Part shown: positions 28,430-60,529 of the stretch, piece after piece
Position numbering within the stretch: position 1 is the stretch's first letter
How the letters are laid out: every line of letters starts with the position of its first letter
Assembly: GCA_015501585.1 (NCBI GenBank)
Contig: JADNRY010000304.1
Span: 1 to 64,000 of the forward strand
Direction of reading: 5' to 3'
Origin: Rhodocollybia butyracea
Lineage: Eukaryota > Basidiomycota > Agaricomycetes > Agaricales > Omphalotaceae
DNA length: 64,000 nt
Notes under the pieces: model-generated
Databases searched by the model: none
Seen by the model: only the letters and a program-made list of their open reading frames with translations
Told to the model about the DNA's origin: nothing
Translations under genes and position numbers: made by a program

Positions 28430-30667
28430 ATTGTCAAACTTAACACAAAAACTGTTTACACTCTTTCCCTGAGGACAACTGCTTGTAGTAGACATCCAGA
28501 TCCTCTCTCTATATATAGAACAGGTTGCTCACCACAAATGAAGGTAGTCCTGTGGTGCGAAGGGGCTGGATTGATTCTGGGTCTTTTTAGTAGTCAGGTC
28601 AATGTAACAAAAGTGTAAGCTAATTAGACTAAAAAAAGTGGGTGACTGAACTGTATTTACCTCAGTAGCAGTAAGCAACACAAAATCAAGCAAATCCTTG
28701 ACATCTTTGCTTGTGATTGATTTCCCTTTATCAAATATCAACAGTCAAGCCTTTTTCACCTGTTTTTGAAGAGAGATACTATCGACTCGCTTGTTTGTCT
28801 GGCGACACTCCATATCTTCAGCTGTACCCATCTCAAAGACCCTACTGGTAATCAGACACCGGGCACATAGACATTTCCCTTTTGTCTTAACACACTGCAT
28901 CAAACACCTGTTCCAATTAATGTAAAGAAATTGGCACAATTGTTGAGACACACCTTTCAGGGTAATCCTTTGCCTAGATATGCCAGCGGAGCATGAACCG
29001 ATGAGAAACACTATCAATACACTCAGAGACCCTCCCTTCTTTGTATGCTTTCTGAACATCCTCATTGCTGACAATCAACTCACAAACAGCCTGAAACAAT
29101 TCACGTCAAAGATGTGTAATGACATCTGAAGTAGGTGGAACACCAAAGTGCTCCATGTATGTCACTTTGACCTCTTCAGGAAGCTAAAAAAAGATTGTAT
29201 CAGTCCTAAATACAAATTAAGTCTGAAAAACAAACCTCAGGAATATACACAAGATGATGTGCAGAAAAGCTGCTGGGAGAAGTACAGATATGCATTGAGA
29301 GGTTTCCGAATGACATGTAGATTGGCCAGAGATGAGCTGTGCTATGCTGAGCAAGATGGGTCAAGTCTGACCAGAGCATAACCGAGAGCAGAACAACCTC
29401 AAGACCATCAGGTGATGGTTGTGGAAGTGACTGAAAGATTTCTGTCTCCTGTGAGAGTGCACAATTTGATGTATAAGCCTCGCTATACACATGTTCGACT
29501 GGATCACCATCCCCAGGGTCAAACATGAGCTTATAGGGCTGGAGGTTATGGGAGTAGAACAACTCAGCGGCAACTTCAGAATCAATAATATCCCTGATAT
29601 TATGATACCAGATGTTCTTTACTTCAAACACTGGTGCATCATGCTCATGGTTTTTGAAGCCTGCACAAGGAAGCTTTAGGTGAACACTACCTTGCTTCCA
29701 ACCAAATTGAATGACAGGAGGTGGACCACCTCCAATAATGGCTTTCAAGGATGAAGCAGTAACTCCTTGAGTATATGCATCTAGGCATTTGTTCTCACAG
29801 CGAGCATCAAAGCTTGCAAACTCATCCTGATTAAACCGAGGATCCCTGATAGCATCATGGACAAGTGAGTTGATACAAGCCTCAGAAAGTGATTTTGAAG
29901 CCAATGACCAGTGCATGATTTTGAGAGTGCTGAAGTTGGTGAATGGTCCATACAAGGGAGTAGAAGAATCAACCTGGACACCAAGTCCACGTATCGGATT
30001 GTGGTTGGGTTCAATGGACTTACTGGTGAACAACGCTGAATCAACAACATCGTGAAGAGAGAGTTTAGTATTGGGATCAAGTGAGGGTTTAGTTTTGAAT
30101 ACACAGAATAAACTGAAATCGTTGGTGTCAGTTACAATCGATTCTCAGTCTCAAACAGTAGGTATTTCTGGCTCTGGAGAGGCTGTGATATGGGCAAGCA
30201 TGTGTTGGGCTGATGGAATGAATTGTAACTCCTCTTCATGACTTGTAGGGAGAAAGTCTTGGTACCGAGGCACCAGTCTTCTTGTGCGTCTTCCTTCAAC
30301 AATGTTTCTCTTGTCTACTTCCATCCTAGGCCATCTGCAATGTTCCGGACCTGGGGTAGCCTCAACAATAGTTGCAGAAGGACTTCCAGGATCTTCCAAC
30401 AGCATGATAGGCGCAAACAGGTCTTCCAACAGCACTGGCACATCAAGTGTAATGTCTACATCAGCAAAAGAGGTTTTGTCAACCGGGTCTTTAGTCCCAT
30501 CCACTTCAGATGCTGCTACAGGAGAGATAGGATGTGAGATCGTCGGTGGAGAGTGTACATTTGATGTACCAGGCTGATTAAGTGAGAAAACAGATGAGGT
30601 TGAGGTCTGAAGTAAGTAGCCTTGCTCATTTACAAAACTACACAGGAACATCTAGTAGGTATACCTG

Positions 30668-32061
30668 CAGTTCAGTCACCCAACTTATTGGTCTTCTTGG
30701 TCTACACTTTTGTTACATTGACCTTACTAAAAAGACCCAAAATCCTGGGCATATCCTTGGGAATCAGGTCATGCCCTTTTTTTCAGGTCATGACCTAGAA
30801 ATTAGGTCATGTCCTAGGTCTGGGAGGTCATGACCTAGGGATGTTAGGTCATGACCTGGGGTGGTATAGGGTATGCCCTGGGAGGGATAGGGGACCTTGT
30901 GGGAGAGGTGGGGGACCTTGAGGGAGAGGTGGGAGACCTCATGGGAGGGATGGGGGACATTGCCAGATGGGATATCTGGAAGGCATGGGTAGGTGCTGGG
31001 GGTGCTGGGGGATAGTGGGGGATGCTGTAGAATAGGAGTTGGCTGGAGAGGGGAATGGGATGAGATGAGAGAGGTGTCTGCTGGCAGATGAGATGGTCAT
31101 ATACTGGAGCACTGAGTTCCAAGAGGTTACCAACTTGGGTTGACATGACAAACCTAAAGTCAAGAAAGTGAATGTGGAACATGGAGGGAGTCATGTTCTA
31201 TGTTGGATAGGTGATTGTTGCAGGTAAGGAGGTCATGTTCTAGATTAAGGAGGTCATGTCCTAGGTTGGGGAAGACATGTTCTAGGTTAAAGAGGTCATG
31301 ACCTAGGTCAAGAAGGTGATGACCTTCTTCAAGGAGGTCATATCCTAGATTGAGAAGGTCATGACCTAGATTTTGTTTTATTACTAGAATAGGAAATTCT
31401 ATACATTAATATATTAGGAAATTTTCGAAATCTCACAGTGGATGAGGTCAAAGCTGTTTTTATTACCAAATTAGGCAAATTTCAAACACTTTATGTTTTC
31501 TCATAGAGTTAGACACATTTAGCATTTTTAATAAATTACTCTATTAGGCAATTTTATTTTAATAGAGTTTTATTTCTTAATTAGGCAATTCCAAACTTTT
31601 GCAGTGGATGAGGTCAAAGCTGTTTTCATTGCCTAATTGGGGAGTGACAAATCTTTTGCAGTGGATGAGGTCAAAGCTGTTTTCACTACCTAATTGGGAA
31701 ATGGCCAAACTCACCACAAAAACTGTCTGGACTCTATCCATGAGGACAATAACTTGTAGTAGGCATCCAGACCCCTTCTCCATACATAGAATAGGTGGCT
31801 TACCTCAAATGAAGGCAATCAATCCTGTGGTGGGAAGGGGTTGGATTGCAAATTATTTTTTTGGATGACCTTTGATTTTAGTGGATGAGGACAAAGCTGT
31901 ATGTCCATAAAAGGAAATTAATAAAAAGAGGTGAGTCTAAAGATTGCTTGATATAACATGCAGATTGACATGGATAAGGGTGATCCTTTTCATCCCCTGA
32001 TACCCTGATATGTTCTCTACCTTTTCTGGGTCTCTGATATTTAGATGTCCCATGGAAGATC
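30668..32061 (+). mobile_element. FB3: single fold-back arm fused to the gypsy gag start
   Basis: It begins with the family tip CAGTTCAGTCACCC and TTTTGTTACATTGACC. AGGTCATGACCT-type repeats follow, then the GTGGATGAGGTCAAAGCTGT modules and a leader shared with FB1, FB2 and FB5. Similarity continues across the gag ATG through GATCAG at 32061 and then stops. No opposite arm or matching tip was found downstream, so the element is either chimeric or interrupted by the gypsy sequence. Confidence 0.7.
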
Positions 32062-34735
32062 AGACCATACTGCTTTAAGTGCTGTTAGGAGTTTAAATCA
32101 GTCACAAGGACATGAACAATCACCTGTTCAATTGCAAGTTTTGCAACCAGTTTTAACTGTCAGGAACATCGCATCACCAAGTGGATCTTCCAAAAGCTCA
32201 GTAAAAAGTTCAGCAAAACAAGACTCACATAAGTCAAGCAATAGTGTACCAATTTTGAACCAGCTTCAAAATGAACAGACACAGTTTGACAGACTTAGTC
32301 AACAATGTCAAAGGTTCCTAGAGTCATTAGGCTATAGAAGCAGTAGTGCTCAGCCTTGGCAATGGGTTCAGCAGTTGGAAAGACTAGGTCAGAGAGAGCT
32401 TGCACAACTAAGTCCAAGTCTGTATCAGCGGATATCAGAAAAAAGGAATAGTCAAATGTTAACATACCTATATGATGAGACACAAAGGAATGAAGTTCAA
32501 GTTCTATTGAGGGCAAGAAGTAGCACTAGTGCAGAATTAGCATCTTCTGTTCATATGAGCCAGACGGCCAGAGTACAGGAAAATGCACCAAGTGTTCACA
32601 CACCAGTGCAAACTCCACCAAAAGCAGAAGTTCCGCCAAGTGCACAAGCCTCCACTCAGAGAAATCAATTAATTGAGAACACAAGAAACGTGGAAGAAAC
32701 TCATGTTCCACCTACAGAGAGGAACTCTAGGCAAAATGAAAGCTCTAATGAGACTGACAGAATACTTGCCTGGACAAGAAGGGTTCAACCACCAAGTCCT
32801 CAAAATGTTAATATACCAATTATTCAACCCATGACACACATGCCATTAGAAACTAATCCTGTTGAAAAAATGGAGCAAGTAGTAAGAAATGAAAATCAAC
32901 ATGATCACTCTAGAACTCAACTTCAACGAGATGAACCACCTCATGCCAGTGGTAGTCACACACTATTTGATCAAGGGAAAAGAAATACAAGACTTAGAAG
33001 CAGAAAGCAGAATTTTGCAATACCTACAAAATATGAACCTGCTCAAGCCTCAACAAGTCAGGTATTTCCTGAGACACAAGTCATTAAAAATAGATTTGAC
33101 TCCCCTCACATTCCCATGCCGATCCAATCTCCTGTGCACCTGGTAGAACCAACACCATTGCTTGCAGAACATCATAGCCAGGTTCCACAGACTCATAAGA
33201 CTGTTGTACCTAGGCCTTTAGGTCTGAATTGGGGTGATGAAGCAAATGAATTTTTGCCAATCAATGGTTATCCATTCATCCCAAATAAAGGCAAGACACC
33301 TGTCAGAGCATCAGGAGGAGCGCCACCATCACCCCCACCACCAGATGATCCTGGAAATCATAGTGAAGGGAATGACCCAAGCAGAAGTAATGATGAGAAC
33401 AATAGAAACAGTTCCCACAGGAATGGCGGATCCAATGGATCTCCTCCACCACCAAATGATGGCGGACCTCCAAAAATGCCTTGTGGAAAATCTAATTGTT
33501 GCTGTTGCAAAGATGGAAGAGATGGAAGGGACGGCAGGGATGGACGTGATGGCAGAGATACCAATGAGCGTGATCCAGAAAGAGAGGAGCAGAAAAGAAG
33601 GAATGAAGAAACCACTAGAGCTCTGGCAAGAGAGTCAAAGCTTGACATCAACAAACCAACTCCATTTGATGGATCTAACAGAGCTGCTTGGAGAGCATTT
33701 TTAAATTCAGTACTGATAATGTTCAATGCAAAGCCAATGACTTACTCTACAGATAATTCTAAAATTACATTTGCCGCATCATACCTTACAGGAGCTGCAG
33801 CAAAGTACTACAATAATCTAGTAGAACAACAGGCCAATGGAGAGAATGAATCCTTCATTCCAGCATTGAATATCTGGTCTGAGTTTGTTAAGTTGTTTGG
33901 ACGCATGTTTGGTCTCCATGATGAGAAAATGCATGCTCAGTCACAACTAGACAAATGTCTACAAGTCCCCAGGGAGTCATTTGCAGACTTTTTAGTCAAG
34001 TTTGAAGATATTGCTAACCGCACTACTTACAATGACCCTGCTAAGAGATGGAGACTTCTGAATCAGATCCGACCAGATCTGCGCAACCGCCTAACAATGG
34101 TTGGCAATTTACCAGAAACATATCAGGATGTTGTCGATAGACTACTAGATATTGATGGCGCACGAGAAGCATTCAATGACTCTGGACTTGGAAACAATTT
34201 CAGTAGTGGAAACAATCGAAATGCAACCATCAATAACCAACCTATTGACCGCAACCAGACTGGAAATGGTTACAGCACATCTGCAAATGCAATTTTTAAC
34301 CAGAATAATCCACCAAATAATCGCCCAATACAAGCGCAACCACAGGGAGCCACCACATTTACTAACACGCTGACTCAAAGACTACCTACTAGAATGAATC
34401 CAAATAATTCTAGAAATAATAATATCAATGAGGCACCAGCTGTAGTAAGAATGGCATGGGTCACTCAAGAAGAATATGACCAAAGATGCGCAAAAGGGGC
34501 TTGCACTTACTGTGGTGAAATGGGTCATTTTGCGAGAGACTGCCCACAACGGCGCAATAATGCATCAGGTCGAGCCACATTTATGGACACTTCCAGTGAC
34601 ATACCCAGCAATATTACACTTGAAGTTGAAGATGAAATCTTGGATATTGACAGCACACTCTTGGAAGGAGGCGCTGAAGGGGAGGAATATGAAGACCTCC
34701 ACCAGGGAAACGTCCTGATGACTCAGGAAGAATAG
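32045..34735 (+). CDS. gag: Ty3/gypsy Gag polyprotein
   Basis: An 896-residue open frame forms the virus-like particle of a fungal Ty3/gypsy retrotransposon. Residues 1-500 are Gln/Ser/Pro-rich and low in complexity. A repeated GRDGRDGRD patch lies near residues 495-510. The capsid-like Gag domain is about residues 530-700 (TPFDGSNRAAWRAFLNSVLI ... LNQIRPDLRNRLTMVGNLP). A CCHC zinc knuckle CTYCGEMGHFARDC lies near residue 820. The frame has almost no CpG and codes Arg as AGA/AGG. The first seven codons lie in the FB3-shared sequence, so the start is either captured or the arms derive from this gene. It ends in the -1 overlap with pol. Confidence 0.9.
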   Translation: MSHGRSDHTALSAVRSLNQSQGHEQSPVQLQVLQPVLTVRNIASPSGSSKSSVKSSAKQDSHKSSNSVPILNQLQNEQTQFDRLSQQCQRFLESLGYRSSSAQPWQWVQQLERLGQRELAQLSPSLYQRISEKRNSQMLTYLYDETQRNEVQVLLRARSSTSAELASSVHMSQTARVQENAPSVHTPVQTPPKAEVPPSAQASTQRNQLIENTRNVEETHVPPTERNSRQNESSNETDRILAWTRRVQPPSPQNVNIPIIQPMTHMPLETNPVEKMEQVVRNENQHDHSRTQLQRDEPPHASGSHTLFDQGKRNTRLRSRKQNFAIPTKYEPAQASTSQVFPETQVIKNRFDSPHIPMPIQSPVHLVEPTPLLAEHHSQVPQTHKTVVPRPLGLNWGDEANEFLPINGYPFIPNKGKTPVRASGGAPPSPPPPDDPGNHSEGNDPSRSNDENNRNSSHRNGGSNGSPPPPNDGGPPKMPCGKSNCCCCKDGRDGRDGRDGRDGRDTNERDPEREEQKRRNEETTRALARESKLDINKPTPFDGSNRAAWRAFLNSVLIMFNAKPMTYSTDNSKITFAASYLTGAAAKYYNNLVEQQANGENESFIPALNIWSEFVKLFGRMFGLHDEKMHAQSQLDKCLQVPRESFADFLVKFEDIANRTTYNDPAKRWRLLNQIRPDLRNRLTMVGNLPETYQDVVDRLLDIDGAREAFNDSGLGNNFSSGNNRNATINNQPIDRNQTGNGYSTSANAIFNQNNPPNNRPIQAQPQGATTFTNTLTQRLPTRMNPNNSRNNNINEAPAVVRMAWVTQEEYDQRCAKGACTYCGEMGHFARDCPQRRNNASGRATFMDTSSDIPSNITLEVEDEILDIDSTLLEGGAEGEEYEDLHQGNVLMTQEE

Positions 34736-36966
34736 GGGAAGCCTGGAGTCAAAATAATGATACCCCAATAAATCTGCTTGCAGTACAAGTAGACACACTA
34801 CCAGCAATTATTTCTTCAATTTCTCTTCATTCATTTGTTATTAACACTAAATTATTCTCGGAAGACTCACAGATGTACCATGCACTTGTTGATTCTGGTG
34901 CTTCAAGGTCATTTATTGATGAATCTTTAGCAAAGAAATTTCCTCACCATATTCACAAACTTCCATTTTCAATCCCCTTAAAGTTATTTGATGGAGAATA
35001 TTCATCAGCAGGAAACATCACTTCAGAATTCACTGTAAAATTATTATATGAGGATGGATCCAAACATGATCTCACCTTGCTTGTTACTCACCTACATCCA
35101 GATGCACCATTAGTTCTAGGATTCCCGTGGCTACAGAAGTATAATCCACAAATTGACTGGGCAAACTTAATGTTCTCATTCAATGGAGGAGTTAAACTTG
35201 CAGCAGCAAAAGTCACTGACATTGAAATTCCAAGGCTATCATACAGGACACACCTTAAACCAACAATTGAGGAAGTTACTGAGCCAGTAGAGAATGTTCA
35301 ACCAGGACTGGGCCTAGATGACCCACTATTGCTTCATGTGGATGAACTAGAAGATTACTTTGTACAAAAGACATTTGGACATATTCAAACAGAACACATT
35401 AGAACCAGTTCTCAAAAATCAACTGAAACTCACCTCAAAAATCAAAAACACAAACAACAAGAGAAACCTATAATACCAGAACCAAACCCAGATTCACCAT
35501 CAAAACATCCATTTACCGACAAGAAACCACCGTTGGTTAGTCTTATAGGGGCACCAGCCTTTGCAAGATTAATAAAAGATGGATGTCCAACATTTACTCT
35601 CAACATCTCACCCACACATGAGATAGTTGACATCCGAGGAGCAGCTATGCCAAGCAAACCTGTGGCTAAAGAGCAAGGTCAAACAGAAGTACAACCTAAC
35701 TCAAAAATTTTATCAGAGCAGGAAATGTTGAACAAAGTTGTCCCAAAAGAATATCATCAGTGGGCTAAAGTTTTCTCAGCTGGAGAAGCAAAAGCCTTAC
35801 CACCCCACCGCCCTTATGACCTCAAAATTGAGACTGAAGAGGGTAGACCTTTGCCACCAGCATCAAAAATATATAATCTGTCTGAGACAGAATTAAAGGC
35901 CTTGAAGGACTACATTGATGATATGTTAAGCAAAGGCTTTATTAGAGCATCAAGCTCACCAGTGGGAGCAGCAGTACTATTTGCAAAAAAGAAAGATGGA
36001 TCACTCAGAATGTGTATTGACTACCGGGCACTGAACCGCATTACACTAAAGAACAAGTATCCACTACCCTTGATTGGAAATTTGATTGATAGATTAAGAA
36101 AGGCCAAGAAATTCACAAAACTGGACTTACGCGCTGGATACAATAATGTCCGGATTGCAGAAGGACATGAGTGGAAAACTGCTTTCAGAAGCAGATATGG
36201 GTCTTTTGAGATGTTAGTCATGCCTTTTGGTCTAACCAATTCACCATCAACATTTCAACACTTCATGAATGACATCTTCCATGACATGGTTGATATTTTT
36301 GTAGTGATTTACTTGGATGACATCTTGATCTTCTCAGAAAATGATGAAGACCATGAGAGACATGTGAAGATGGTCTTACAGAGACTTGAGGACAACCACC
36401 TATTTGCTAAGCCTGAGAAGTGTGATTTTCATACTACATCAGTGGAGTACTTAGGACTAATAGTCTCACCTGAGGGCATCTCCATGGATCCAAAGAAAGT
36501 TGAAGTGATTAAAAATTGGCCACCCCCAACTACTGTAAAGGAACTCCAATCATTTCTGGGATTTGCAAATTTTTACAGACGGTTCATTGACAACTATTCT
36601 GGTATAGTGAAGTCATTGACAAAACTCTTGGGTAAAAATGTACCATGGAACTGGTCAGAAGATTGCACTGCTTCCTTTGAACTATTAAAGCAAGCATTCC
36701 AAGAAGCTCCAGTCTTACAACACTTTGACCCTGAATATTTGAGTATTGTTGAGTCAGATGCATCAGACTATGCCATTGCATCAATAATCTCACAGTATAA
36801 TCCATTCACTAGTGAGCTCCACCCAATAGCCTTCTTTGCAAGAACTATGACAAAGGCAGAGCTTAACTATGATATATATGACAAGGAGCTCTTGGCCATA
36901 GTTGAATCATTTAAACAATGGAGAGCATACCTTGAAGGTTCACGGGAAGGATACATACTGGCTTGA
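34693..36966 (+). CDS. pol: Ty3/gypsy Pol: protease, reverse transcriptase, partial RNase H
   Basis: Read from a -1 shift out of gag (a first internal ATG is at 34873). Protease: ALVDSGASRSFID, then VLGFPWL. Reverse transcriptase: DGSLRMCIDYRALN, LDLRAGYNNVRI, MPFGLTNSPSTFQ and the catalytic YLDD in VVIYLDDILIFS, followed by YLGLIVSPEGI and FLGFANFYRRFI. RNase H starts with VESDASDYAIASI (first Asp) and YDKELLAIVESF (Glu) but ends at LEGSREGYILA-stop. The second half, with the TDH and final Asp motifs, is missing and the frame changes into the integrase frame. The element is therefore probably not autonomous. Confidence 0.85.
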   Translation, partial: RPPPGKRPDDSGRIGEAWSQNNDTPINLLAVQVDTLPAIISSISLHSFVINTKLFSEDSQMYHALVDSGASRSFIDESLAKKFPHHIHKLPFSIPLKLFDGEYSSAGNITSEFTVKLLYEDGSKHDLTLLVTHLHPDAPLVLGFPWLQKYNPQIDWANLMFSFNGGVKLAAAKVTDIEIPRLSYRTHLKPTIEEVTEPVENVQPGLGLDDPLLLHVDELEDYFVQKTFGHIQTEHIRTSSQKSTETHLKNQKHKQQEKPIIPEPNPDSPSKHPFTDKKPPLVSLIGAPAFARLIKDGCPTFTLNISPTHEIVDIRGAAMPSKPVAKEQGQTEVQPNSKILSEQEMLNKVVPKEYHQWAKVFSAGEAKALPPHRPYDLKIETEEGRPLPPASKIYNLSETELKALKDYIDDMLSKGFIRASSSPVGAAVLFAKKKDGSLRMCIDYRALNRITLKNKYPLPLIGNLIDRLRKAKKFTKLDLRAGYNNVRIAEGHEWKTAFRSRYGSFEMLVMPFGLTNSPSTFQHFMNDIFHDMVDIFVVIYLDDILIFSENDEDHERHVKMVLQRLEDNHLFAKPEKCDFHTTSVEYLGLIVSPEGISMDPKKVEVIKNWPPPTTVKELQSFLGFANFYRRFIDNYSGIVKSLTKLLGKNVPWNWSEDCTASFELLKQAFQEAPVLQHFDPEYLSIVESDASDYAIASIISQYNPFTSELHPIAFFARTMTKAELNYDIYDKELLAIVESFKQWRAYLEGSREGYILA
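34705..34727 (+). promoter_or_regulatory. Probable -1 ribosomal frameshift signal between gag and pol
   Basis: GGGAAAC at 34705-34711 is read G GGA AAC in the gag frame, the classical X XXY YYZ pattern. The pol frame is -1 and opens right after a TGA at 34690-34692, so the overlap is only about 43 bp and contains the heptamer. CCTGA (34714-34718) can pair with TCAGG (34723-34727) just downstream. The loop TGAC could pair with GTCA at 34748 as a pseudoknot. The 2-nt spacer is shorter than usual. Confidence 0.7.
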
Positions 36967-38407
36967 ACATGAAAAAATAGCCAAGTCCAAGGAGCCAGGA
37001 CCCTTCAAAGTTGAAAGTCAGCTCTTACTCCGTGATGGTCTAATATATGTTCCCAATGATGGAGACTTACATCTTGAAACCTTGAGAATGTATCATGATC
37101 ACAAGCTCAGAGGTCACCCCGGAATTCAAAAAACAATGAAGCTAATCAGGGAGATGTATTACTGGCCTGGTATGAAGAAAACCGTGAGAAACTATGTACG
37201 GACCTGCCATGACTGCCTGCGCGCAAAAGGGAGCAGAAGAAAACCATTTGGGGGACTCAAACCCTTACCTATAGGTAATAGACCATGGTCATCAATTTCC
37301 GTTGATCATATAGTTGAACTACCAGAGTCAAATGGATTCAATGCTATCATGGTAGTAGTATGCAGACTCACTAAACAAGCAGTTTTGGTACCATGTCACA
37401 CTACAGACACAGCAACTGACTTAGCAAAGTTGTTTATTAAGAATGTATTTTCAAAACATGGCTTACCCACAGACATAATTTCAGATAGAGGAACCACCTT
37501 TGTATCCACTTTCTGGAGGACTATATGTCAAGCCTTAGATGTGAAGTTGAACTTTTCAACAGCCTACCCTCCCCAAACTGATGGACAGACTGAGAGAGTC
37601 AACCAAACACTAGAACAATATTTAAGATTGTTTGTCAACTATGAACAAAACGACTGGGAAGAATGGTTACCTATTGCAGAATTTGCCTACAACAACACAC
37701 CTTCAGAAGCAACAGGAGTATCACCCTTCTTTGCAAATAAGGGATTTCATCCAAAACTCACTGTTTCACTGAAATCACTCCCAAATCACCATGCCCAACT
37801 AGTTGCAAAAGATCTTCACAAACTTCACCAATTTCTAAGACATGAATTAATGACCACCAATGAGATATCAACAAAATATGCAAACAGAAAAAGAGAAGAC
37901 ACACCTGATTGGAAAGAAGGAATGATGGTTTGGTTAAACATGAAAAATATAAAAACCAAGAGACCTATGAAGAAGCTGGACCATAAGAGAATGGGACCAT
38001 TTGAAATTCTGAAGAAAGTCTCAACCCATGCATACAAACTAAAGCTGCCTGTAAACTTTGGTAACATTCACAATGTGTTCCATGTAGACTTACTAACCCT
38101 ACATGAATCTGAGTCTGATCAATTCCCAAACCGCAACCCACCTCCACCTCCACCTATTGAGATTGAGGGTGAAAAAGAGTATGAAGTAGAACAAGTACTT
38201 AACTCACGGAGAAACAGACAAAGGTTTGAGTACTACATCAGATGGGAAGGACACCTGCCTGAGGAAGACACCTGGGAACCATTAGTCAATGTGCTAAATG
38301 CCAAGGAAGCACTAAACATGTATCACACACTTTACCCAACAAAACCGAAGCCAACAGACAGGGAGCTTGAGCATGCTGAAGGACTCAGGGAGAGGGACAA
38401 TGGGTAA
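36902..38407 (+). CDS. Ty3/gypsy integrase with C-terminal chromodomain
   Basis: Recognisable pol sequence resumes at about 36960 after the RNase H deletion. The zinc-binding part has HDHKLRGHPG and CHDCLRAK. The catalytic core has Asp in SVDHIVELP, Asp in IISDRGTTF and Glu in TDGQTERVNQ, with 35 residues between the last two. The GPY/F module reads KRMGPFEILKKVSTHAYKL with FHVDLL. The chromodomain is about residues 427-475 (YEVEQVLNSRRN ... YYIRWEGHLPEEDTWEP), which marks a chromovirus. Chromodomains direct integration to marked chromatin. The whole integrase is uninterrupted, but upstream pol is not in frame with it. Confidence 0.85.
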   Translation: MNHLNNGEHTLKVHGKDTYWLEHEKIAKSKEPGPFKVESQLLLRDGLIYVPNDGDLHLETLRMYHDHKLRGHPGIQKTMKLIREMYYWPGMKKTVRNYVRTCHDCLRAKGSRRKPFGGLKPLPIGNRPWSSISVDHIVELPESNGFNAIMVVVCRLTKQAVLVPCHTTDTATDLAKLFIKNVFSKHGLPTDIISDRGTTFVSTFWRTICQALDVKLNFSTAYPPQTDGQTERVNQTLEQYLRLFVNYEQNDWEEWLPIAEFAYNNTPSEATGVSPFFANKGFHPKLTVSLKSLPNHHAQLVAKDLHKLHQFLRHELMTTNEISTKYANRKREDTPDWKEGMMVWLNMKNIKTKRPMKKLDHKRMGPFEILKKVSTHAYKLKLPVNFGNIHNVFHVDLLTLHESESDQFPNRNPPPPPPIEIEGEKEYEVEQVLNSRRNRQRFEYYIRWEGHLPEEDTWEPLVNVLNAKEALNMYHTLYPTKPKPTDRELEHAEGLRERDNG

Positions 38408-38614
38408 TCAAGATCAATACATTCAAAGAATAAATAACTACATCCTACCGTGGCAACCCCTAAGAAAAGAAAATAAATTAAAACCAAGGAACAAGAGCTA
38501 CTTAGGCAAGAGGAAAGAACAGAAAGTAATATACAAAAGAATAACTTAAAGAGGACAGTAAAGGGGGGATAAGCCATGGAAAATATTACAAAAAAAGCGC
38601 AATAAAATAAAATA

Positions 38615-39558
38615 TCAGTCCAGGTCTGCTAGGCAGATCATTGTAGGGGAATGAACAGATACCACCAACGAATCAGTGGAAGATAGTGGGGAAGGGAGAT
38701 CATGAATGCGTGGAAAGTCAGGAGAAATTTCCCAGCTATTTGAGAAAGTGACTGCAGAGAACTGTGTAGCAAAGCCTACTGGATCAGATACCTCTTCTTT
38801 AAAATGCTGGAGAGCACCGTAAATCTCATCTGAGGTATATCCAAGCTGGTCCTGGATGGTGCTAACCATAGCAAGAGCCGCCGAAATCCTCCTAGCCCAT
38901 GTATTATCCCCTTCAGAGTTAGCTTTGTCATGTAACTCTTCAAGAAAGAGAAATAGGGAGTAGGAATCATCAATGGTAGCCTCCAGAAAAGGTTGAACAT
39001 CTGCTTGAGCAAAGCAAGCTAAACCATTGGCAAGACACTAGAGTTGAGCCAAGATACATTCAGGACATAGTAAAGAATATTATAAGCAAGAACTACTTAC
39101 TTGGCGATCCCTGATCAGCTTTGCCTGTGTGTCAAGGAAATCTGGATATCCGCTCAATTCCCGGTCATTCCAAAGATCAGAAACTTCAGTAACCAACTTC
39201 TCGTTGGTCTGTTCAAGATGTTGAGAGTACAATTGCCATGCTCTGGCACTGTCATGATGTTCACGGCCATTCTGTATCAACTCTGTGATAGTTCTACCAA
39301 TGAACTGAGTCAGAGAGATTATTTAACAGGAAGCAATACAACATACCGGTCTCGTCGAGTCAACTCATCCTTGATCCACCCCAGGAGACCATTGAGGTCA
39401 GTTGCAGCTTCAGGTGTTGAAAATTGGGCAAAGAGACGAGAAGCGGCAGGATGCAGATACAATTGTGTAAACATTACCAGCGAGTTTGCGGTGTCATCAA
39501 TAGGAGAAGGAAATCCAGTAGTAGACAGACTGGAAGGGTTGTTATGTGTGGAAGACAT
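38615..39558 (-). CDS. Spliced antisense gene inside the gypsy element
   Basis: Three exons on the strand opposite gag-pol: 39558-39347, 39293-39101 and 39037-38615 (stop included). Intron 1 (39346-39294, 53 nt) has GTATGT...GGTAG and intron 2 (39100-39038, 63 nt) has GTAAGT...CTCTAG. Phases agree, giving 828 nt and 275 residues starting MSSTHNNPSSLSTTGFPSPI. The product is acidic and predicted helical, with LFAQFSTPEAATDLNGLLGW, ELSGYPDFLDTQAKLIRDRQ and FLFLEELHDKANSEGDNTWA. No domain is recognised. It lies between the integrase stop and the polypurine tract, so it is carried by the element. A captured host gene is the main alternative. Confidence 0.6.
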
Positions 39559-40330
39559 GTTGTTTGAGTTGGAGAAAGAAAGACAAATTGATACAGCTTA
39601 AATAGCAGGGAGTTTTCACACAAACCCAGGACAAGACACAACTTCAATCGATGGGTTTCGAGCCAACATGGGTTGAAACGGCGAGTCATTGACTCATGCT
39701 CACTGATTTTTCCGAAAATACAAACACAAAGTCCTGGAAACCGGAATAAACATGAGATTTAACTGCCCATTTAAGTTAGAATGCTCACTAATACACTCAG
39801 AAATAAACCCAAAACTCCACAGAGATGATTAGTTTTGAGTCTGCATGAGATTCAACTTCCATTTTAATATTTATTGCTCAGTAATCAGCTCGGAAATGAA
39901 CCCGAAACACCAGATGTGGAAATCTCAAAGACACTCCAAACTCGAAACCAATTAATGACACCACAAAATGAAATCTGTGATTAGCTGTGATGCACTCGAA
40001 ACCTTACTCGACCAATGGCATCAAACACTCCCATGTATCCCAGGAAACGCCAACACATCACAATCATGATGCCAATGCAACATGTGATTTGCCAAAGTTG
40101 GCTTTGACAGTATTCGAGCGGGACAAGCGCAAAATCACACAAACCCGGCAATGCCGCCGCTAGCACTGAAATGATGGGCCGCCACACCTGTTCCAATTGA
40201 CGTGAAATATTCATGTAAACTCGAAACATGAATAACAAGCTCAAAACTCAACCAATTACATCCAAATAAAATGCCACAGTGACAGAATATTTGCCCAAAT
40301 CCATAAATGGCCTCAGAGGGTTTCGGCCTT

Positions 40331-40343
40331 AAGCGGGGGGTAC
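40331..40343 (+). promoter_or_regulatory. Polypurine tract of the gypsy element
   Basis: AAGCGGGGGG directly precedes the 3' LTR (TAC lies between). It would prime plus-strand DNA synthesis. Confidence 0.75.
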
Positions 40344-40528
40344 TGTTATGACCCGATTCTACACTATAGGCATATACACACTCTTTTTTCATTTATTAAC
40401 AACCACTACTATCATTAATATTTTACCACTTAACACTATCACATACATTCATTACTTATCTTCTCAACACAACTTCGGATAATGCTGCACATTACCATGG
40501 AAGCTGCAAAGACCCTTCCACACAGTAT

Positions 40529-40717
40529 TGACTCATTATTAGTCAACTCCGGTTCCACTAAATGACTCAATATCAGTCATCCATGACTCTACTGAATGAC
40601 TCAACATCAGTCATCCGCAGTTCCGCTTAAATGACTCAGTAACAGTCATTACACACCATTCCACAGTCATGCTGACTGATCCGCAGCATTTCCGCAGTTA
40701 TGACTCAAATCTAGTCA
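40529..40717 (+). promoter_or_regulatory. 34-bp repeat array with TGACTCA half-palindromes in U3
   Basis: TGACTCA occurs at 40529, 40563, 40597, 40632 and 40701. Each is followed exactly 12 bp later (start to start) by AGTCA. Steps are 34, 34, 35 and 69 bp; a degenerate unit at about 40665 fills the double step. TGACTCA is the Gcn4/AP-1 type bZIP site, so these are candidate enhancer elements upstream of the TATA box. Confidence 0.7.
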
Positions 40718-40753
40718 TTCTGCAGCATTTCCTAACTAGTACATATTAAACAG

Positions 40754-40760
40754 TATATAA
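40754..40760 (+). promoter_or_regulatory. TATA box of the LTR promoter
   Basis: TATATAAGG lies about 40 bp downstream of the last TGACTCA unit. Transcription would start roughly 25-40 bp further on, before the stem-loop array. Confidence 0.55.
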
Positions 40761-40860
40761 GGAAGCCAGATTTACCAATGTACAGTAGACGTATTATTTT
40801 CTTAAATCCAAACCCCCACTTGTTTGCTGTTATCACTTGTGTGAATCACCAGACCAACTC

Positions 40861-41174
40861 ATTGTATCTTGTTGAGCTATCTCCAAGCTACAATACACAT
40901 TTATACATCTTGTTGAGCTAACTCCAAGTTGTATCCACTAACATTCACCTGTTGAGCTATCTCCTAGTGAATACTTCTTTAATTGCCACTTGTTGAGCTA
41001 TCTCCAAGTTGCAACTTCCTATTACTTGTTGAGCTATCTCCGAGTATTAGACACCACACTCACTACTACTTGTTGAGCCATCTCCGAGTATTAGTTCTGA
41101 TTCATATTACTGCTTGTCGAGCCATCTCCGAGGGTAATCTTATTATTATTTGTCGAGCTATCTCCAAATAATAA
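40861..41174 (+). repeat. Array of eight stem-loops with one conserved apex and variable stems
   Basis: Eight units, each an 8-11 bp stem around a 12-nt apex TYGAGCYAWCTC (usually TTGAGCTATCTC). Unit spans: 40861-40894, 40903-40934, 40943-40972, 40983-41014, 41019-41050, 41062-41095, 41106-41138, 41143-41174. Flanks differ between units but pair with their partner, for example ATTGTATCTTG/CAAGCTACAAT, TTGCCACTTG/CAAGTTGCAA and TTATTATTTG/CAAATAATAA (perfect). GAG and CTC inside the apex can add three pairs around a CTAT, CTAA or CCAT loop, with a TT bulge below. It lies downstream of the TATA box, so it should be transcribed. Confidence 0.85.
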
Positions 41175-41368
41175 CTTCTGTGAGTTTTGTATTACAAACT
41201 AGTTACTAACTTTACTTGAGCCTAGTTGTTTGAGTATATATTTTTTGCCTAGCGGTTTCATCAAACGGAAAGGCTTGCTCTATAATCTCCATTAATTTCT
41301 CTTATCATTGTTACCACCGAGTTACGTACTGTGAAGGTTTGGACGAGACTATTGATCGAGTCATAACA

Positions 41369-41742: not shown

Positions 41743-41900
41743 CCGCACCGTAACCGTATACGGTTACGGCCGTAAAATTTACGGTAGCTTATGGTATATG
41801 GTAGGACCGTAACCGTAACCGTAAAGAGATCCAAAAAGGCTCTTACGGTATGGTTACGGGTATGATACGGTAAATTTACGGTATATGGCCGTAAAAATAT
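41742..41900. repeat. CCGTAACCGTA-rich dyad cluster
   Basis: Direct and inverted copies of CCGTAACCGTA, TTTACGGTA and GGTTACGG are packed into about 160 bp, including ACCGTATACGGT. The sequence breaks the USP-like frame. A related cluster lies at 21150-21330. It is probably an end of a small DNA transposon. Confidence 0.5.
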
Positions 41901-44573: not shown

Positions 44574-45170
44574 CTTGTACAACTGTTGTGCACATGTACA
44601 ATACTTGTACAAGCTTTGTATGCATGTAGAACGCTTGTATGAGCTCTGTACTCGTGCACGACGCTTGGACAAGCTTAGTACATGTGATACAACCTCTGTG
44701 CACATGTACAACGCTGGTACAAGTGTTATGTGGGTGCATGATGCTTGTACAAGCGTCGTACGTGTGCATGACACTTGTCCAACAGTTATGCACGTGCATA
44801 ATGCTTGTACAGGCTCCGCACGCGTGCGCAACGCTTGTACAAGCTTTGTACGGGTGTACGACGTTTGTGCAGTCTCTGCACGCCTGCACAATGCTTGTAC
44901 AAGCGTCGTACACGGGTGCAGAGCCGGTACAAGCATTGTGCACATGTACAAAGCTTGTACAAGTGTCGTGCACGCGTGCAGAGCCGGTACAAGCATTGTG
45001 CACATGTACAGGGCTTGTACAGGCTCTGCATGCGTGCACAATGCTTGTACCGGCTCTGCACACGTGCACAACACTTGTACAAGCTTTGTACGCGTGTACG
45101 ACGCTTGTACAAGCATTGTACACGCCTACAATCCTTGTACAATCTTTATAGAATAATATTATATATTTAC
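44574..45170. repeat. 30-bp palindromic minisatellite, 19 units
   Basis: CTTGTAC recurs at 44574, 44604, 44634, 44664 and then every 30 bp from 44714 to 45134. One 20-bp partial unit breaks the phase. Each unit has two dyads: CTTGTACAAG and a variable 10-12 bp palindrome such as GTGCACATGTAC, TACGCGTGTA or TGCACGTGCA. Because 30 is divisible by 3 and the units avoid stops, long frames stay open on both strands (up to 312 codons, minus). I read them as non-coding. Confidence 0.85.
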
Positions 45171-57396: not shown

Positions 57397-58745
57397 TTAA
57401 GTCTGTGTTTGCGGTAGATGACGCCAGTCATCTACTGCTTGTAGTTCTAGATATCTGTCTAGAGCTGTTAGATCCTTACAATTATTGTAAGTTTCGGTGG
57501 TAATATCGCCTAAGTTCCATTTGACTTGGAACATGAGTTTTTGACCATCCCAATGATGGTTGATTATCTCATCAATGAGCCATTCCACAGTGGACGGTTC
57601 TCCGAAATCATATGGTTCCGCAACGGAACACATAGGAAAGAGTGTGTCATCATTCGGATGATGCTTTTGCAATAGACTTGCGTGGAAGTTATTATGAATT
57701 CCACACTTAGCCAACTCCGTTGGCAGACCTACTCGATAATTCGAGGAGTCTTCATGTACCTCAACGATGGGGTACGGTCCAATGAACTTGGGAAGTAGCT
57801 TAGAGGCCCTCCCCCTCGGCAAGTTCAAATTTTTAGTTGAAAGATACACTAAATCATTTAGTTGAATCTCCGGCTCTTGTTGTCTACGCTGATTAGCATG
57901 ATAGACTTGATATACGCACAATTCTATAATCGCATTGTGAGCATCTTGCAGGTGCTGTAATGCACAATCTGCAAATTCATGAACACCTGGTGGTGTTTGA
58001 GTACCGTAGACATTAGGAGCTTAGCTCCTAGTAAATGATGAACTTCACGCCACCAGCGTGAAGTAAGCTTCGGGTCTCTATCGGAGACTATAGACTTTGG
58101 TAATCCGTGAAGTCTTACAATCTCCTTGACGTAGATCCATGATAACTGCGTTGCAGTTATTGTTGTTTTTACGGGTATTACATGTACCCACAAAGTTAAT
58201 CAACAGATGACTACCCAAAGGTAGTCGTATCCTTGTGATTCAGGGAATGGACCAATGAAGTCCATTCCGATTGGTTCCCATGGTTTCATGGGTATCGGTA
58301 GTGTATGTAGGAGGCCGGTTGGCATCCCATTAGTAGTTTTGGCGCATTGACATTCAATGCATGCCTTACAAAATTCCTCAATGTTACCATTGACCCTTGG
58401 CCACCAGTACCATCGGCGGATGTAATTGGATGTTCGTTGACCTCCGAAGTGTCCTAATACTTGATGAGCTTGTTCGGTGATTATGCCTCTCAAGCTCTGT
58501 CCTTTAACGGTTTTACCGTTAGGAATGCAAAGAACTTTTTCTTTGCCTCGGTTTACAGTATAGATGAGGCTGTTCTCGACTGAGAATGGCTTATGGTGCT
58601 CAGTACTATTGAGCACTTTTGAGAATAATGGATCATTAGCGTAACAACACTTAATGTTCTTTATAAAATCATCCTTTTTGGCATGACTAGCAAGCGGTTC
58701 TTCACCTCTTGCACAAGAGTTGAAGATAGTAATATCTTCTTCCAT
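57397..58745 (-). pseudogene. Minus-strand gypsy integrase and chromodomain, defective
   Basis: Zinc-binding part: HQVLGHFGGQRTSNYIRRWY and CIECQCAK. Core: first Asp in GMDFIGPFPES, then TGA at 58200, then second Asp in IVSDRDPKLTSRWW. The segment with the catalytic Glu is missing: GAKLLMS is followed, in another frame, by GTQTPPGVHEFADCALQHLQ. The C-terminal part (57921-57397) has KLLPKFIGPYPIVEVH (GPY/F) and a chromodomain-like end (VEWLIDEIINHHWDGQKLMF). Loss of the Glu, a stop and a frameshift make it inactive. Confidence 0.8.
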
Positions 58746-58814
58746 AGTATTGGGAACAGGAACTGTTGGTTCCTTTTCCTTAACGGCAGATTGTAATTCT
58801 GCTGCTTCAGTGTC

Positions 58815-60529
58815 TCAAGATTCTACAGTCTCGGCTACAGGATTTACTTGCTTCTTCTTTTGAAGAATTCGAGCAGATCGACGAGTGTTCATGCTAGCGA
58901 GATGCTCGCTAACTAATTCTTCAATTCTTCCTTGTGGAAGATTGTCTAGATTTCGGTCAATGCAAATATCTGCATTGACATATTCATGTGCCTCATGATT
59001 TTCATTAGGCATGTTGGATTCATAGTTTGAATGCAATAATGTGTCTGCTACTTTGTTTGTTATACCTTTGATATAACGAATATCAAAGTCAAATCTGGAT
59101 AGATATTCCATCCAGCGTGCTTGACAACTTGAAAGCTTCCTTTGTGTAAGGAAGAATTCTAATGCTTTGTGGTCTGTGACCACATGTATACGATATCCAA
59201 GAACTTTATCTTCCCATTTGAGAAGAGCTTCGAGGATTGCAAGAGTCTCCAATTTGAAGACTCTATAATTATGTTGTGCAGCCGTTAATTTGCGAGACAT
59301 AAATCCCGCAGGTCTACACGTCTGCCAAGTAGGGCCTTGGCTGTACATACTTCCGACTCCTGATACGGAGGCATCACAGATGACCCATATTGGTTCATCT
59401 TTACTTGGATCGATTGGCTTCAGTATTGTAACCTTTGATGCTAAACATACTTTGTGTGTTGGCATCCAGATGAACGGAACATTGTTCCATACCATAATTG
59501 AAAGTGGTCCAGTGAACTGGGCTACTTCGGGCATGTACGGTGCGATGTACTGTACAAGTCCCAGAAAGCGCTGTACTTCATTGTACGTGCGCGGGGTTCA
59601 CCATTCGCACATCTTATCAGTATCCACATGGATACCTTTATCGTCGATGACATGCCCAAGGCAGTCTACAGACTCGGAATAAAGCTCACACTTTGCTGCC
59701 CTTAGAAACAAGTGATGTTTCCTGAGTCTTTCTAGTACGTCTCTGACGTGCTTTTCATGCTCTTTGAGTGTATTACTAAAGACAAATATATCGTCTAAAT
59801 AAGCATGGACATATCGTCCAATAGCATCACAAAAGATGTAGGTCACCAATCATTGAAAAGTGGCGGGAGCGTTACAGTCTCCCATCATCATGACATTGCT
59901 AACGAATGTCCCAAAGACGCATGCAAATGCAGTCTTCCATACATCTCCAGGCTCAGTTTGAGTCTGTTTGTATGCATTGCTGAGGTCAATTTTAGATCGA
60001 TACTTATGTTTGGCAACATCTGTACGGATGTTGTCTTGGTCTGGGAAAGGAGTTACATCCTTTACCGTGTTAGCATTACGCTGACAATAGTTGATAATGG
60101 TACAAAGAGTACCATTTGTCTTTGGAATGCAAAGCATCGGAGCTGCTTGTGGAACAGCTTGTTGAATCCACCAGTTAGCACCGGTGTATTTTTCAAGCTT
60201 ATCACTAAGCTGAGTCTTAAGATGATCTGGGCATCTTGGCATATAGTAGTTATACTTATGCTGTTTGTCAATGAGATTAATCCAATGATTAATTTCTCGA
60301 AATGGTGGAGTACCGGTGGTACTCCTCCTAGGATGTCCATATGCTTGTGTATAATACAAGCGCGGAGCAAAGGTATTTGCTCATCCGTATACGGACCTCG
60401 CTCTGGTAGAGCCGAGAAGTCTATAACATCTTCCTCTTGGATGGCGTATAATTTTTCATGCTCATTGTCTGCATGACCATGAGCGTAGAGTTCTTTGAAC
60501 TCTATGTCGTCAAGTGGGAATTTCCACAC
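58815..60529 (-). pseudogene. Minus-strand gypsy reverse transcriptase and RNase H, defective
   Basis: Upstream block: EINHWINLIDKQHKYNYYMP, PMLCIPKTNGTLCTIINYCQ, KIDLSNAYKQTQTEPGDVWK. After TGA at 59850 comes the catalytic YLDD (VHAYLDDIFVFSNTLKEHEK) and CLGHVIDDKGI. After TGA at 59598 comes RNase H: ICDASVSGVGSMY, LETLAILEALLKWED, VVTDHKALEFFL and YIKGITNKVADTL. The usual ADALSR reads ADTLLH. A frameshift lies near 60300. The order and content are those of Ty3/gypsy pol. Confidence 0.85.

Follow-up and report, generated by a model that had tools for sequence, protein, structure and literature searches.

The long terminal repeat (LTR) of a gypsy retroelement in Rhodocollybia butyracea harbors a row of hairpins that present one and the same 12-nt apex on stems of differing sequence. 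Computation shows the modeled sense RNA to fold into eight or more such short, mutually insulated hairpins. What is new here is the element's resemblance to the Tf1-type self-priming chromoviruses, with the array borne in its leader. We tentatively favor a role of the array as a cis-acting RNA module for packaging by the element's own Gag, with protein binding as the prediction, while rating this reading at somewhat less than an even chance. All coordinates refer to the 64,000-nt stretch of contig JADNRY010000304.1 that was analyzed (the window).

Eight hairpins with a common apex

The array and its units are listed below; the array was delimited by fold, covariation, arm permutation and apex count, and each unit by fold and covariance model.

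40861..41174, + strand: array of eight hairpins with a common apex
40862..40893, + strand: hairpin unit 1, apex 40872-40883
40903..40934, + strand: hairpin unit 2, apex 40913-40924, with A at apex position 9
40942..40973, + strand: hairpin unit 3, apex 40952-40963
40983..41014, + strand: hairpin unit 4, apex 40993-41004
41019..41050, + strand: hairpin unit 5, apex 41029-41040
41063..41094, + strand: hairpin unit 6, apex 41073-41084
41106..41138, + strand: hairpin unit 7, apex 41117-41128, 5' arm with a single bulged base
41143..41174, + strand: hairpin unit 8, apex 41153-41164, perfect stem

A first-pass annotation of the DNA had described eight units with a common 12-nt apex, and the count bears this out: TYGAGCYAWCTC has eight exact matches in the array, all on the plus strand, and none elsewhere in the window, as compared to 0.05 expected (100 shuffles). 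Within the apex, a 5' bulge UY is followed by a three-pair GAG/CUC neck that closes a loop CYAW. Across 275 units, apex variation is confined to positions 2 (T/C), 7 (T/C) and 9 (T/A), bar five single deviants; searches allowing up to two mismatches and up to one mismatch returned the same five. The bulged GAG/CTC upper helix proposed in the first-pass annotation is one of two options. Comparison of units speaks for it, the distinguishing A-U pair of GAG/CUC forming in 29/29 distinct units versus 25/29 for a GA/UC alternative; single-sequence energies speak against it, since they prefer GA/UC within a 2x2 internal loop in seven of the eight units, by 0.2-1.1 kcal/mol. The individual hairpins have energies of -6 to -10 kcal/mol.

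Hairpin arms covary between units

Folding of 40785-41368, a check that had been suggested at the outset, gave an MFE structure containing all eight hairpins, while the apical helix of unit 7 was open in the centroid; the stretch as a whole reached z -2.07 (3/100 shuffles do as well). Aligning the eight units, we find 88.5% of stem cells paired, compared with 76.7 ± 2.4% after shuffling of the 3' arms and 35-49% with slid partners. Two-sided changes occupy 13 cells versus 4.7 ± 2.0, a number reached by none of 500 shuffles, whereas the number of further pair types is ordinary (reached by 150/500). When arms were permuted exhaustively—scoring the outer six pairs and disallowing bulges—only 12 of the 40,320 arrangements were as good as the native one. 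The stems thus differ and still largely pair, as had been claimed, although seven of the eight contain a mismatch or bulge. This includes the second of the stems quoted as examples in the first-pass annotation; only unit 8 is perfect.

A larger set points the same way. Among 29 distinct units, drawn from the best 150 of 198 unit-model matches in 18 loci, 91.0% of cells pair (80.5 ± 0.9% when shuffled) and 39 cells carry two-sided changes (11.6 ± 3.5 when shuffled), in an alignment that was fitted to the structure and contains related, hence non-independent, units. Pairs with a two-sided change (89/500 shuffles as high) and pair types (480/500) are ordinary in number here. G-U cells outnumber A-C cells by 59:13 in 57 distinct 36-mers from 275 units, a count in which unit 7 is out of register and the window's eight units are entered twice (from the window and from locus L009). 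An eight-unit array from another locus (L045), folded alone, reached z -2.76 (1/300 shuffles as well), and its reverse complement z -1.33 (20/200). The G-U excess and the better z of the sense strand point to a structure of the sense RNA. The claim of a selected RNA structure is therefore supported—by the arm permutation, the covariation between units and the G-U:A-C ratio—and is to be placed in the sense transcript, where we regard the modeled structure as well supported by computation. A further leader with its primer-binding site (PBS; locus L039) folded at z -3.13 (0/20 shuffles), with nine apical hairpins kept in the MFE structure and some lost in the centroid. Since the array-free leader of a second family, C507, also beats its shuffles (z -3.76), stability alone is no evidence for the array.

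The array lies in the leader of an apparently self-priming chromovirus

The window holds a single copy of the LTR, and no 5' LTR for this element copy.

32060..34735, + strand: gag of the array-bearing element, 5'-truncated (94% DNA identity to L039 from 32060; Pfam)
34693..38407, + strand: pol of the array-bearing element (DNA identity to L039; Pfam)
40331..40340, + strand: probable polypurine tract adjoining the LTR start (judged from sequence only)
40344..41368, + strand: 3' LTR, 1025 bp (sequence)
40754..40761, + strand: TATA box TATATAAG (sequence), its first base 33 nt before the inferred transcript start
40785..41368, + strand: 5' leader part of the LTR, ATG-free (0 ATG, simulation)
40787..40798, + strand: self-primer AGACGTATTATT, inferred RNA 5' end (exact reverse complement of AATAATACGTCT in 11/12 leaders)

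The LTR ends in a perfect 9-bp terminal inverted repeat, TGTTATGAC...GTCATAACA, and is assigned, from the gag and pol upstream, to the 3' end of a gypsy element with a chromodomain. The gag encodes a capsid domain and a CCHC zinc knuckle (Pfam PF03732, PF00098); pol encodes protease-like, RT, RNase H and integrase domains as well as a Tf2-1-like SH3 domain and a chromodomain, the protease-like matches falling below the Pfam cut-off and the last two domains (PF24626 and PF00385; window 36902-38404) above it. We consider the window copy truncated at 32060 because a relative with both LTRs (C481; L039 and L040) extends further 5' to its own LTR. Two intact copies have LTR starts ~10.5 kb apart. 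Among the 120 listed matches to the RT part of pol, those with a name include Termitomyces, Pleurotus, Leucocoprinus and Trametes, and also frogs and the alga Closterium. In U3, several ATGACT..AGTCAT palindrome-like repeats (TGACTCA), which we take to be bZIP-like half sites, lie upstream of the TATA box (window 40520-40715) and are possible DNA enhancers.

The first-pass annotation had placed the array downstream of a TATA box inside a gypsy LTR, and so it is found (TATA box 40754-40761; array 40861-41174). From 40785 to 41368 there is no ATG as compared to 8.9 expected (P 0.0005; first-order Markov, 2000 simulations), and all ten ATGs of the LTR lie at or before 40778; 27 of 30 distinct leaders are ATG-free. 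Directly behind the 5' LTR, the elements examined have a single T and next to it AATAATACGTCT, the reverse complement of AGACGTATTATT. To compare leaders, we searched with patterns that allowed two mismatches each at primer and PBS, which returned 16 leaders, 13 of them distinct; one (L080), a stretch without an ATG, was dropped. In 11 of the remaining 12, the primer-PBS complement is exact over 12 nt, and the twelfth has one mismatch. Predicted primer-PBS pairing probabilities range from 0.84 to 0.96, and the first ATG, the gag start, follows the PBS after 12 or 17 nt. Genome-wide, the 12-mer with GAG 400-430 nt behind it matched 146 + 219 times, a single start being able to match more than once, versus 0 + 1 for the reversed pattern; leader starts are among the listed places, as are PBS-LTR junctions on the opposite strand.

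Both the lack of ATGs in the leader and the self-primer at 40787-40798 speak for a transcription start upstream of the array. For the array to sit at either end of the genomic RNA, as the first-pass annotation proposed, the poly(A) site would have to lie beyond it. Judging by TATA spacing, primer and ATG absence, we infer the RNA 5' end to lie at the self-primer; the array would thus be part of the scanned leader, between self-primer and PBS. In tRNA-primed Ty3/gypsy elements, the PBS starts with TGG, the complement of the tRNA CCA end, directly after the 5' LTR. Here, TAATAATACGTCTC stands in that place in all 12 leaders, and the element probably primes its own DNA copying. Together with the SH3 domain and the chromodomain, this primer-PBS layout makes it look like a Tf1-type self-priming chromovirus.

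The array itself does not appear to take part in priming. Shuffling it 60 times within the L045 leader left primer-PBS pairing at 0.953, compared to 0.956 for the native sequence. The native array forms 8.8 pairs with the rest of the leader versus 32.7 ± 12.5 after shuffling (2/60 as low), and 86.5 pairs within itself versus 66.7 ± 6.5. These models portray the array as a module insulated from its surroundings rather than as a priming scaffold.

Array copies in the genome

Array data come from one 95.6-Mb genome, in which 30 distinct leaders serve as a sample of several hundred arrays. That estimate follows from the 1434 + 1187 adjacent apex pairs found genome-wide (reversed pattern, 0), at 7-10 pairs per array. 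The window LTR has at least 54 matches in its own genome (40 of 391 candidates scored). Leaders, of which 40 were found, measure 579-714 nt; the 30 distinct ones hold 8 units in eight cases, 9 in eighteen, 10 in three and 11 in one. Beyond these, one locus (L079) has 12 unit-model matches, and two short stretches, perhaps partial arrays (L077 and L078), have six each.

Stem variants among the 30 distinct leaders fall into 17 types, with 11 keeping the pair, two breaking it, one gaining a pair and three at unpaired places; double (compensatory) changes are absent, and the copies are very similar. Four of the 11 pair-keeping types start from G-U, where any transition keeps pairing, and the mutation spectrum outside the hairpins already favors pair-keeping transitions by 14 to 11. 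The first-pass annotation had named a lack of excess compensatory changes in related LTR copies as grounds for refutation; pairing is kept in 11 of the 13 variants at paired places, among copies too similar for such a test. The fraction of variable columns was 0.104 in the apex, 0.106 in stems, 0.105 in spacers, 0.108 after the array and 0.04 before it, that is, we saw no tighter constraint on apex or stems than on spacers among the 30 distinct leaders. Evidence for selection from this comparison of LTR copies is weak; the covariation seen is between units, not between copies.

Relatives with and without the array

Three non-autonomous elements—L041, with LTR starts 5.5 kb apart, and L042 and L045, at 4.6-4.7 kb—keep the array and show no match of >200 nt to pol. 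A U3 segment at roughly LTR positions 149-265 (149-370 in L041) does not align with the window LTR. The array-bearing LTR parts of these elements are 85-96% identical. Leader-holding LTR parts reach 88-96% identity, spacers included, between elements whose Gags are only 67% identical over residues 1-423 and 43-44% over about 391-603. Such near-identical leaders beside strongly diverged gags suggest leader exchange between elements, and the leader identity could stem from recent exchange through template switching just as well as from constraint.

The class formed by L042 and L045 (C136, C1038) encodes a Gag of 749 aa in which, by alignment, the capsid region is missing but the N-terminal part and a CX2CX4HX4C knuckle are retained. 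No stop interrupts the 749-codon frame in 7 of 60 scored candidates, including L042 itself. This Gag had no Pfam domain at E 0.001 and no match in the protein collection, and no homologue of the long Gag N-terminus was detected.

The second chromovirus family, C507 (L084, 38000-41500, reverse strand), carries AGATTTGCTATA in an ATG-free leader and its complement ~420 nt further on, 15 nt before the gag ATG, an 11-nt match expected by chance in an estimated ~1 in 20 such comparisons (~1 in 80 for 12 nt). Additional support comes from where the match lies and from the MFE structure of this leader, which closes with the primer-complement helix. Its LTR was not delimited, there being no repeat between the two flanks. 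The unit model found no hairpin unit in the C507 leader, which also lacks a tandem array. As C507 apparently self-primes without an array, self-priming seems not to need one, and packaging in such elements cannot generally need one either. Self-priming may be common to at least two families in this genome.

Candidate readers of the apex

A multivalent protein-binding platform best explains the array because a fixed apex on changing stems sits in the leader of an RNA that is both translated and packaged. In this view, the array would act in cis as an RNA module within the 5' leader of a Tf1-like chromovirus that apparently self-primes; a sequence-specific RNA-binding protein would recognize the repeated apex and gain avidity from its repetition. 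The likeliest reader would be the element's own Gag, through the zinc knuckle, the unusual N-terminal extension or both; the array would then mark the RNA for packaging into virus-like particles and help to switch it from translation to reverse transcription. In favor of Gag, pol-less relatives keep the array, one class with a capsid-less Gag that retains the knuckle. We rank Gag first among the readers, as a tentative choice, and a host protein second. A more specific version, which we hold to be rather doubtful, has the orphan N-terminal domain of Gag read a tandem multivalent packaging array, with capsid-less, pol-less derivatives hitch-hiking in the particles of the full element. By keeping the array and the RNA-reading parts of Gag, such derivatives would bring their own adaptor.

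That the apices instead recruit an RNA-binding protein of the host, or titrate it away, to serve translation, transport or silencing evasion, is possible though unlikely: the repeated apex on variable stems, the high copy number with many units per RNA, and the position in a scanned, ATG-free leader before gag would all suit such a platform or sponge, but we recognized no host motif, and no Rfam match came near the gathering score. We judge it improbable that the hairpins tune scanning, shunting or re-initiation without any dedicated binding protein. Leaders mostly free of ATGs, with the first ATG so close behind the PBS, are what this idea would predict; it leaves the fixed 12-nt apex on changing stems unexplained, and scanning ribosomes would mostly unwind hairpins of only -6 to -10 kcal/mol. 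Compaction, in which the array merely shortens the primer-PBS distance and prevents the leader from mispairing with both sites, draws on the self-contained folding of the array and its location between the two. We rejected it as quite implausible, given that predicted primer pairing was unchanged by array shuffling (60 shuffles, one leader), that C507 apparently primes across ~420 nt with no array, and that a fixed apex would again go unexplained.

The two remaining ideas seem to us highly improbable. Dimerization through kissing apices could use the self-complementary AGCU; this palindrome is broken in the two of eight apices that read AGCC and by the C found there in 56 of the 275 sampled units. 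A repeat acting at the DNA level—tandem transcription-factor sites, or a selfish minisatellite expansion that is palindromic by chance—would fit the varying unit number (8 to 11 in the 30 leaders, 12 in L079), and many LTR enhancers are indeed tandem repeats. However, the arms differ between units and yet pair, a G-U excess and a weaker antisense fold would not be expected of a DNA palindrome, and the array lies downstream of the inferred start.

Pairing of the apex with other parts of the element was discarded as well: of six sequences complementary to the whole apex or to portions of it (6 to 12 nt), none occurs in window 32060-41368. The apex complement resembles what we take to be a tRNA A box (30 tRNA-like loci; a 10-nt match in a Lys-like gene), a likeness set aside since the frequent C at apex position 2 misfits. 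Separately, a tRNA-Ser-like gene occurs in many near-identical copies, clustered on contig C494 and present on other contigs.

Comparison with known systems

As in Tf1/Tf2, Tj1 and the Tf1/sushi group, the PBS adjoins the 5' LTR and complements the inferred mRNA 5' end, and as in Tf1/sushi elements the integrase carries a chromodomain and a Tf2-1-like SH3 domain. Unlike in that group, the leader here measures 579-714 nt with eight or more hairpins in a 1-kb LTR, the element spans ~10.5 kb between LTR starts, and its long Gag N-terminus has no detected homologue. Bacterial CsrB-type RNAs expose repeated GGA hairpins. The sponge RNAs CsrB and RsmZ resemble the array in that their hairpins repeat an apex motif to bind protein multivalently; they differ in being bacterial small RNAs with a GGA motif, as opposed to a retroelement leader.

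For comparison of scale, Tj1 is described with 5,003 bp and 244-bp LTRs, in a report that proposes for it the self-priming layout named for Tf1, with the PBS next to the 5' LTR (PMC4600332). The multiple dispersed packaging signals of RNA viruses are presented as stem-loops with varied stems and one common apical recognition motif, which in MS2 consists of a loop motif together with a 5' bulge (PMC6281560). By analogy, the shared apex would be a candidate binding site with putative recognition, in a tight tandem array within one untranslated leader rather than dispersed over the genome. In the parts of the Ty1 and Ty3 literature consulted, a structured 5' end holds packaging, dimerization and priming signals in elements that are tRNA-primed, tandem equal-apex hairpins not being mentioned (PMC4974528); Gag binding sites and packaging sequences are called imprecisely defined even there (PMC4974528, PMC11381356), and Ty3 is proposed to dimerize via a palindrome in a hairpin apex (PMC11381356).

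Rfam 15 gave no match in the window at the gathering score, and nothing near it even at E 10; the best match in 40740-41368 scored 16.9 bits against a cut-off of 50. In viral contigs, the 20-base core occurred once, as an isolated single unit of 28.3 bits (L082), and neither the PBS-LTR junction pattern nor pol had a match. Across 257 billion prokaryote bases, the paired pattern appeared in 14 stretches, against a rough chance estimate of about 8, and none of these 14 loci had a unit by the covariance model at E 1. Titles and abstract beginnings of the open-access literature yielded no equal-apex array in an LTR leader.

With eight or more equal apices on different stems, the array is an unusually clean candidate binding site. 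The genome itself supplies the motif, its allowed variation (Y2, Y7, W9) and a sister family lacking the array. The array would also be a naturally occurring multivalent RNA tag of the kind that engineered hairpin arrays provide.

Other repeats are present in the window. Short ACCGTA and TTACGGTATGG repeats lie downstream of the LTR (41806-41884), and tandem units of ~30 bp around the palindrome CTTGTACAAG, open in several frames, occupy 44574-45147. The ranges 29209-30144 and 57400-59597 (reverse strand) contain pieces of a Plavaka transposase and a second gypsy pol.
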